A stretch of 64,000 nt of DNA from Chloroflexota bacterium (GTDB taxonomy: Bacteria; Chloroflexota; Limnocylindria; P2-11E): positions 1 to 64,000 of the forward strand of contig JACQAT010000019.1 of NCBI GenBank assembly GCA_016194865.1, read 5' to 3'. Position numbers and translations under genes: made by a program. Shown piece by piece: positions 20,501 through 58,294 of this stretch. Numbering within the stretch: position 1 is the stretch's first letter; each line of letters starts with the position of its first letter. The notes under the pieces were generated by a model. The model was not told the origin of the DNA and made no database searches. It saw only the letters and a list, made by a program, of their open reading frames with translations.

Positions 20501-20657
20501 TCCGCCGCTGGTCCTCGCCCACGGCGTCACCGGCACGTGGCTCGACGAATTCGTCGAGCTCGGGCTGCCGCTGCTGATCTTCATCGGCCTCTACATCTGG
20601 TCGAACCGGAAGGAGAAGGCGAAGGAGAAGGCCCGGAAGGCGCAGGACCAGGAGTGA
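20487..20657 (+). CDS. 56-residue single-span membrane protein in copper/cytochrome operon
   Basis: A short gene that starts 14 bases before the CopC-CopD stop and ends in the GTGA start of the cytochrome c gene. The protein has an N-terminal outside part (LDEFVELG), one membrane helix (LPLLIFIGLYIW) and a Lys/Glu-rich cytoplasmic tail (RKEKAKEKARKAQDQE). Tight coupling on both sides makes it very likely to be real. Its layout resembles small assembly or subunit proteins of cytochrome complexes, but no family is recognised. Confidence 0.7.
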   Translation: MLPADPPLVLAHGVTGTWLDEFVELGLPLLIFIGLYIWSNRKEKAKEKARKAQDQE

Positions 20658-21190
20658 CCTTCCCGGTCTCGCGGCAGGGCATGGAGCAGATCGCCCTGCT
20701 GCTGCTCGTGGGCGCGGCGTTCTTCGCGTTCATGAGCTGGAGGACGCGCCGCCGCGGGCTGCCCTGGCGGCGCAACGGCATCTCCGCCGGGATCCTCGGC
20801 AGTCTCGCCGCGGTGTCGCTCGTCCTCGGCTATACGGTCGCGCCGAACATCCCGACGCCGCCCGTGCCGTTGACCGCGCGCTTCGCGCAGAACCCCGTGC
20901 CGAACGACGCCGCCAACATCGACAGCGGTCGCGCGCTCTTCCAGAAGAACTGTGTCGTGTGCCACGGCGCGCGGGGCCTCGGTGACGGGCCGGCCGCGTT
21001 GAGCTTCAATCCGCGCCCTGTGAACCTCCAGCTGCACGTCCCGCAGCACGCGCCCGGCGAGGTCTTCTATTGGATCAGCGAGGGCGTTCCCGGGACGGCG
21101 ATGCCCGCGTGGAAGGATCAGCTGTCGGACACGGAGCGCTGGCAGCTCGTCCGCTACCTGCAGCAGCTCGCGGCGAGCGGGCAGCCGTAG
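20654..21190 (+). CDS. Membrane-anchored mono-haem cytochrome c
   Basis: A 178-residue protein with two N-terminal hydrophobic segments (about 10-25 and 42-60) and a C-terminal class I cytochrome c domain: CVVCH haem site near residue 99, GLGDGPAALSFNPRP, and MPAWKDQLSDTERWQLVRYL containing the axial Met. It is the kind of domain found in oxidase and alternative complex III modules. GTG at 20654 overlaps the stop of the small upstream gene; ATG at 20681 is an alternative. The TAG stop is the first triplet of the structured repeat that follows. Maturation would depend on the ccm operon at 31.6 kb. Confidence 0.88.
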   Translation: MTFPVSRQGMEQIALLLLVGAAFFAFMSWRTRRRGLPWRRNGISAGILGSLAAVSLVLGYTVAPNIPTPPVPLTARFAQNPVPNDAANIDSGRALFQKNCVVCHGARGLGDGPAALSFNPRPVNLQLHVPQHAPGEVFYWISEGVPGTAMPAWKDQLSDTERWQLVRYLQQLAASGQP

Positions 21191-21253
21191 GTGGTACGCC
21201 TCTGCTCCGCAGCGGCGTACCGTCCTGCTGCTGCGCCTGCGGCTTCGCAGTAG
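21187..21253 (+). repeat. Structured repeat A, copy 1
   Basis: About 67 bp starting GTAGGTGGT. It forms two hairpins: GGTACGCC...GGCGTACC with an inner CTGC/GCAG, and CTGCTGC...GCAGTAG. Copy 2 is at 21828-21897 with the same ends and the same two hairpins but different bases in the stems. The TAG in its first bases is the stop codon of the cytochrome gene, and its last base abuts the ATG of the DUF421 gene. Confidence 0.65.
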
Positions 21254-21754
21254 ATGTTCGACCTGACCGTCTCGATCCCCGAGCTGATCGCGCGCGCCGC
21301 GCTCATCTACCTCGCGCTGCTCGTCGCCTTCCGCGCGTTCGGCAAGCGTGAGGTCGGGCAGTTCACCCTGTACGACCTCGTCTTCGTGCTCCTGGTCGCG
21401 AACGCGGTGCAGCCCGCCGTCACAGGACCGGACAATTCCGCCCTGGGCGGCGTCGTGGTCATCCTCACGCTCGCGGTCCTCAACTTCGCCGTCTCGCGGG
21501 TGCACTTCCTCCAACACCTTCTCGTGTCGCCGCCCACCGTGCTCGTCCGCGATGGCGCGTTCCAAGAGGAGGCGATGGAGAAGGAGGGCGTCGACCAGGA
21601 GGAGGTCGAGACCGCGATGCGCGAGCACGGCGTCGACGACATGAAGCACGTGAAGCTCGCGGTCCTCGAGCCCGATGGCGACATCTCGATCGTCGAGAAG
21701 GACGGCAGCGGCGGGCGGCGCAGGCGTCGCCGGCGCTACAAGAGAAGGAGCTGA
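21254..21754 (+). CDS. DUF421 (YetF-family) membrane protein
   Basis: A 166-residue protein with three N-terminal membrane helices and a cytoplasmic domain. The segment FGKREVGQFTLYDLVFVLL is the family signature, and the cytoplasmic part has SPPTVLVRDGAFQEEAMEKE and VKLAVLEPDGDISI. The C-terminus is a run of Arg/Lys residues. YetF-type proteins are linked to envelope and spore phenotypes in Bacillus, but their biochemical role is not settled. The ATG directly follows repeat A copy 1 and has no Shine-Dalgarno, so its translation start may depend on the repeat. Confidence 0.85.
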   Translation: MFDLTVSIPELIARAALIYLALLVAFRAFGKREVGQFTLYDLVFVLLVANAVQPAVTGPDNSALGGVVVILTLAVLNFAVSRVHFLQHLLVSPPTVLVRDGAFQEEAMEKEGVDQEEVETAMREHGVDDMKHVKLAVLEPDGDISIVEKDGSGGRRRRRRRYKRRS

Positions 21755-21756
21755 CC

Positions 21757-21831
21757 GTGTCCGACTTCACCGAGGTCCTGGACGCGCTGGACGCCAGTCA
21801 TCGCGCGAAGGCGGACGCGATCGGCGCGTAG
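21757..21831 (+). CDS. 24-residue micro-ORF cut short by repeat A
   Basis: GTG at 21757 follows a strong AAGGAG site with good spacing, two bases after the DUF421 stop. The predicted peptide is MSDFTEVLDALDASHRAKAD plus four residues. Its TAG stop is the first triplet of repeat A copy 2. It may be a genuine small peptide or the start of a longer protein truncated by arrival of the repeat. Confidence 0.45.
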   Translation: MSDFTEVLDALDASHRAKADAIGA

Positions 21832-21897
21832 GTGGTCACAGCACCGCCAAGCGGTGCCGCGACAGTCCTGCTACTTCGCCTGGCGGCTACGTAGTGG
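21828..21897 (+). repeat. Structured repeat A, copy 2
   Basis: About 70 bp starting GTAGGTGGT and containing GTCCTGCT as in copy 1. Hairpins are GCACCGC-CAA-GCGGTGC and CTGCTAC...GTAGTGG. Relative to copy 1, the second stem has changed on both sides (GC pair to AT pair) while still pairing, which is compensatory change. It ends at the stop codon of TldE on the other strand. Confidence 0.65.
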
Positions 21898-58197: not shown

Positions 58198-58294
58198 TGG
58201 CGAGAGTGCATGGGAGTCGAACCCACCACGGAACGTTCTACGCCCCGTCAGCGGTTTTGAAGACCGAGGCCTGCACCGGCAGACGCGCACTCTC
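58198..58294 (-). tRNA. selC: tRNA-Sec (TCA)
   Basis: The minus strand gives an 8-bp acceptor GAGAGTGC/GCACTCTC with G73 and an encoded CCA, a 6-bp D stem GTCTGC/GCAGGC, anticodon loop CTTCAAA with anticodon TCA, a long variable arm (ACGG.GCGT/ACGT.CCGT) and a 5-bp T stem around TTCGACT. The 8+5 acceptor-T stack, 6-bp D stem, long arm and UCA anticodon are the hallmarks of bacterial selenocysteine tRNA. Confidence 0.95.

Follow-up and report, generated by a model that had tools for sequence, protein, structure and literature searches.

In REPs, a GT[A/G]G tag marks the foot of the hairpin, and the repeats look like the ends of IS200/IS605 elements; IS608-type elements have guide tetranucleotides that select the cut sites by pairing with them (PMC6006769, PMC8266576). 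In REPINs, changes in the stems compensate each other, and the doublet is known to be excised (PMC3116915); one group of REPs, the CGTC REPs, has no known transposase and so sets a precedent (PMC3733652). The way in which REP-like palindromes spread is poorly understood (PMC8266576).

The repeat described here, found twice in the window (the whole 64,000-nucleotide stretch of a Chloroflexota contig that was analysed), shares with REPs and REPINs the GT[A/G]G tag at the hairpin foot, with the consensus GTAG-GT-GGTC..GACC, as well as intergenic copies that number in the tens, palindromes peculiar to one lineage, compensatory changes and evidence of mobility. Unlike them, it has two distinct hairpins in direct order, GTAG or TAG at both outer junctions, a TAG that the target has before insertion, no inverted doublet, and no Y1/RAYT gene found. 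The likeness to IS200/IS605 elements and their non-autonomous derivatives lies in the subterminal hairpins, the lack of terminal inverted repeats, the strand-specific insertion directly 3' of a tetranucleotide target, which flanks the left end, and an internal sequence complementary to the putative cleavage sites. It differs from them in that no TnpA (Y1) gene was found in 177 genomes of the class, the internal block is single and the right end equals the target (TAG). No description of the present repeat was found in the literature.

Results

Two copies between the cytochrome c and TldE genes

The preliminary description of this site reported two like-oriented elements of about 70 bp, 640 bp apart; both are real, with a spacing of 641 bp, and both contain the shared blocks GTAGGTGGT and GTCCTGCT..CGCCTG (Table 1). 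The two hairpins per copy are recovered in the predicted folds and in the covariance model, hairpin 2 of copy 2 by the pairing of the model; the free fold favours an alternative pairing there that involves the flank. Folded as RNA, the + strand gives z-scores against shuffles of -5.1 for copy 1 and -3.6 for copy 2. The compensatory change noted in the second stem is also present: between the copies, one G-C pair has become A-T through a double change, and an additional A-to-G change leaves a T.G pair.

Table 1. Coordinates of the two copies and their parts, as positions in the window.
Feature	Position	Strand	Basis
Target RTAG of copy 1 (GTAG)	21187..21190	+	sequence; target role from empty orthologous sites elsewhere
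Copy 1 mobile unit, GTGGTACGCC...GCAGTAG, 63 bp	21191..21253	+	covariance model, 77.2 bits, E 2e-17
Copy 1 including target	21187..21253		
Copy 1 hairpin 1, GGTACGCC/GGCGTACC, inner CTGC/GCAG	21193..21221	+	fold
Copy 1 internal CCTGCT, complementary to GTAGG (left) and AGTAG (right end)	21224..21229	+	sequence; conserved in alignment
Copy 1 hairpin 2, CTGCTGC/GCAGTAG	21225..21253	+	fold and covariation
Target RTAG of copy 2 (GTAG)	21828..21831	+	sequence
Copy 2 mobile unit, GTGGTCACAG...GTAGTGG, 66 bp	21832..21897	+	covariance model, 66.8 bits, E 1e-14
Copy 2 including target	21828..21897		
Copy 2 hairpin 1	21834..21864	+	fold
Copy 2 hairpin 2, CTGCTAC/GTAGTGG	21868..21897	+	sequence; paired in covariance model
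711-bp island, from copy 1 through the DUF421 gene (21254-21754) and the 24-codon frame to copy 2	21187..21897	+	

Copy 1 runs exactly up to the DUF421 gene, as had been noted, with its last base at 21253 and the ATG at 21254. In both copies the TAG had been taken for the stop codon of the preceding gene. This holds for copy 1, whose TAG ends the cytochrome c gene (20654-21190); it fails for copy 2, as DUF421 ends with TGA at 21754, and what the TAG terminates there is a frame of 24 codons (21757-21831) that shows no further sign of being a gene. When this frame was considered as the start of the gene that follows DUF421 in relatives, nothing similar was found there. The base 3' of copy 2 opens CTA, the TldE stop codon on the opposite strand, and copy 1, DUF421, the short frame and copy 2 occupy the entire interval from one stop codon to the other. 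The island is absent from five relatives (L262, L263, L264, L267, L268), whose cytochrome c and TldE genes directly adjoin, 14-49 nt apart. DUF421 encodes a short protein of 166 aa; relatives have no such gene at the equivalent place, and their homologues, at 40-47% identity, are located elsewhere.

Copy number and taxonomic range

The two-block pattern GTAGGTGGTN{15,40}GTCCTGCT has 15 matches in the source genome (G000, a 1.38-Mb bin, 66% complete) and none in the reversed control. The covariance-model search that the preliminary description had proposed did yield further copies: model R1, built from 33 copies, detects 25 in the source genome, with E-values from 4e-20 to 8e-13. Across the 28 genomes of the family, which belongs to uncultured Chloroflexota, it detects 84 copies, spread over 15 genomes and seven of the eight genera. 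With 15 pattern matches against none, 25 model copies and the fold z-scores, the repeats are far beyond chance. R1 found no copies in the 149 remaining genomes of the class and, among 400 genomes sampled from the phylum, none beyond the family, all genomes being incomplete draft bins. Plasmid and phage records held no match to the element. Three pattern matches in viral contigs each fitted the covariance model poorly, and an exact-pattern scan of genome contigs proved unspecific, returning in the main chance matches across phyla. Within the source genome, 21 of the 25 copies lie on the + strand of their contigs, although the orientation of contigs is expected to be arbitrary.

Insertion 3' of a pre-existing TAG

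Flanks of ten copies from one genus (g4) were compared with the corresponding sites of congeners. At L205, the occupied site reads CGATAG/GTGGTC..GCAGTAG/CCGGCG (slashes mark the junctions), and the empty site in six congeneric species is CGATAG/CCGGCG-like. The empty sites read GGTTAG/ in four congeners at L204 (between rpmJ and rpsM), CAATAG/ in five at L064 and TAG/ in six at L212 (between rplN and rplX), where the occupied site has TAA at both ends; at L024, three congeners have GTAG/ and three GTAC. L077 and L078 have one agreeing relative each, L018 and L210 were unreadable, and L065 gave no usable pair. Several of the empty-site relatives carry additional small differences at the junction. 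The clean empty sites define what is inserted, at which target and with which junctions: 57-67 bp are inserted precisely 3' of a pre-existing TAG, leaving TAG at both junctions. RTAG is already there in the empty sites, and the terminal TAG of the right end is gained on insertion; a duplicated target and an element-borne TAG both fit this pair. Past RTAG, the flank logo contains zero information, and the target is mainly GTAG or ATAG.

Where copies are multiple they form direct tandems of a single oriented unit, with no inverted doublet. Tandem copies have a GTAG in common (L201, L066; remnants at L028, L019 and L068), which is what insertion of a further copy into the right end of an earlier one, used as target, would produce.

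Anatomy and covariation

Units of 57-67 bp follow the scheme RTAG/GTGGTC-hairpin 1-GACCGTCCTGCTNC-hairpin 2-GNAGTAG, with the consensus RTAG/GTGGTC-hairpin 1-GACC GTCCTGCTNC-hairpin 2-GNAGTAG. There are no terminal inverted repeats, as the ends GTGGTC.. and ..AGTAG are not mutually complementary. The inner arms vary between copies, even inside one genome, while complementarity is kept. Across 33 copies, 87% of cells are paired, and the covariation score is 0.199 versus 0.090 after shuffling, a value reached by none of 500 shuffles; sliding the partners gives at most 0.108. In hairpin 1 of 61 copies, 57 cells have a two-sided change where 15 are expected, and at its six variable pairs (columns 11, 12 and 17-20) there are 56 two-sided versus 4 one-sided changes, so the arms behave as a palindrome maintained at the DNA level. 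Template switching perfects imperfect palindromes; it could contribute to the paired arms and is inseparable from selection in these data. Pairing is also preserved between orthologous copies from two species of one genus (L061/L208), in which a GGTC/GACC stem has become GGAC/GTCC.

The internal CCTGCT is complementary to GTAGG at the left junction and to AGTAG at the right end, with one T.G pair each, and the two pairings are mutually exclusive. Conserved T.G pairs become C.A mismatches on the opposite strand, suggesting that the strand that folds is the one reading RTAG.

Gene context

According to a simple gene model based on codon scoring, nearly all of 80 copies are intergenic: 38 lie in the same sense as both neighbours, 20 antisense to both, 12 between divergent and 7 between convergent genes. 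The suspected enrichment at gene ends is evident, as the TAG of the element is the stop codon of the upstream gene in 28 of 46 co-directional cases, while TAG makes up 36% of other nearby stops. Such insertions occur even within ribosomal-protein operons, where landing right after a stop codon leaves the genes unbroken. The simplest reading is a choice of TAG as target together with survival of harmless insertions. No replication-strand bias of the kind that the lagging-strand preference of IS200/IS605 elements would give was seen in the GC skew: the oriented value for the flanks is 0.004 +/- 0.003, in a source genome whose skew is itself weak.

Where the upstream gene lies on the opposite strand, the reversed element can provide an in-frame start, ATG/GTG-ACC-ACC-TAC, near element position 12 (L034, L038, L059, L028, L071); possibly these are merely over-long gene predictions.

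Search for the mobiliser

The preliminary description had suggested looking for a RAYT-type transposase; none turned up in the 177 genomes of the class. The survey covered the Y1_Tnp family (PF01797), for which E. coli and other controls were positive, and gave no hit above the cut-off in any of the 28 family genomes or the 177 class genomes, all incomplete bins. A model of hairpin 1 alone, run on eight genomes, detected no lone left ends, hence no extended form of the element whose separated ends enclose an enzyme gene.

Discussion

We propose that the copies are probably non-autonomous miniature transposons of about 57-67 bp, which insert 3' of TAG in a single-strand manner of the IS200/IS605 or REP type. 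The element would move as a folded single strand, namely the strand reading RTAG, and an enzyme acting in trans would bind the hairpins. Target and right end may be chosen through pairing with the internal CCTGCT, complementary to GTAGG and AGTAG, which would resemble the pairing of guide and cleavage sequences in IS200/IS605 elements; the putative guide here is one block between the hairpins, whereas in the known cases a guide precedes each hairpin on its 5' side. Insertions would then persist where they are harmless, immediately 3' of a stop codon or at a TAG elsewhere between genes. Against this proposal stand a class without a Y1 gene above the cut-off (177 genomes), the failure to find a copy with separated ends in the eight genomes searched and a GC skew, weak in the source genome, in which no replication-strand bias was seen. 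A more specific version, in which miniature elements enter TAG sites as folded single-stranded DNA (or RNA) with a single internal guide for both ends, moved by a non-Y1 enzyme in a class without detectable Y1, is offered tentatively. We consider the element a new family of miniature single-strand-type transposon.

How does this proposal fare against other explanations? One of these is a classical REP/RAYT family, that is, GTAG-tagged palindromes whose REP-associated tyrosine transposase has been lost, is unassembled or resides on another replicon. A GTAG 1-2 nt before the hairpin, intergenic positions, palindromes that vary between genomes and compensatory changes are all known from REPs and REPINs (PMC3733652, PMC6006769, PMC3116915), but the missing Y1 gene, a TAG that is present at the target beforehand and does not come with the element, the absence of inverted GTAG doublets and a copy number far under the usual >100 make such a family unlikely. 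We give similarly little credence to an unrelated mechanism, be it bridge-RNA targeting (IS110-type), a short-core serine recombinase, an integrase that works on folded DNA as in integrons, or RNA-based copying. The failure to find a Y1 enzyme, the same TAG at both junctions, which is compatible with a short recombination core, and pairing that is G.U-compatible in an element without terminal inverted repeats would all suit one or other of these. However, bridge-RNA targeting would be expected to need an extended target, and there is none past RTAG; RNA-based copying by target-primed reverse transcription would leave truncated copies or tails, which are not seen. Like integron attC sites, the element keeps structure over sequence, would fold as a single strand and occurs at gene 3' ends; unlike them, it has two hairpins, no R boxes (GTTRRRY/RYYYAAC) in the consensus and scattered single copies in place of cassette arrays, and the site inserts alone. 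MITEs of DDE transposons are likewise short, gene-less and present in many copies, with a 3-bp direct repeat at the junctions, but they have the complementary terminal inverted repeats that the present element lacks.

The preliminary description, which had left the choice between a small mobile and a regulatory element, is partly supported: mobility with conserved pairing is borne out by the many copies, the covariation in both hairpins and the precise empty sites in relatives, whereas a regulatory RNA does not agree with copies that are sense, antisense, divergent or convergent to unrelated genes. A cis-acting RNA of mRNA 3' ends, controlling decay or coupling, under selection and passively dispersed, would account for the stem covariation, the position directly 3' of stop codons and the retention of orthologous copies in species pairs (L061/L208, L016/L080, L076/L207). 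This reading is already disfavoured, and in our estimate very improbable, given the 20 of 80 copies antisense to both neighbours and the 12 between divergent genes, the unrelated host genes, the equivalent junctions in congeners that lack the element, two-sided changes in a proportion unlike that of typical G.U-rich RNA helices, and an Rfam scan of the window that returned, above the gathering score, two tRNA matches alone and none for the element. A separate question is whether the copy pair carried DUF421 jointly, as a composite unit or cassette. It is possible, in that the whole 711 bp occur only here, between genes that adjoin in five relatives, and that contig C3 of the same genome has a bactofilin gene between a second pair of copies, 653 bp apart (two close pairs by chance, p ~0.035). 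Yet the cargo is seen in no other genome, G000 is the sole available species of its genus, the bactofilin gene is perhaps native at its own site, and separate insertions plus a gene gain suffice as an explanation; joint transfer seems rather improbable to us.

Returning to the miniature transposon that we favour, should these bacteria really lack the usual enzyme, their hairpin DNA is moved by something else, and the genomes rich in copies (G000, G001, G004, G009) are where to look for it.

Apart from the repeat, the window contains a selenocysteine tRNA (58202-58294, - strand; Rfam RF01852, 73.9 bits), so the source organism probably makes selenoproteins.
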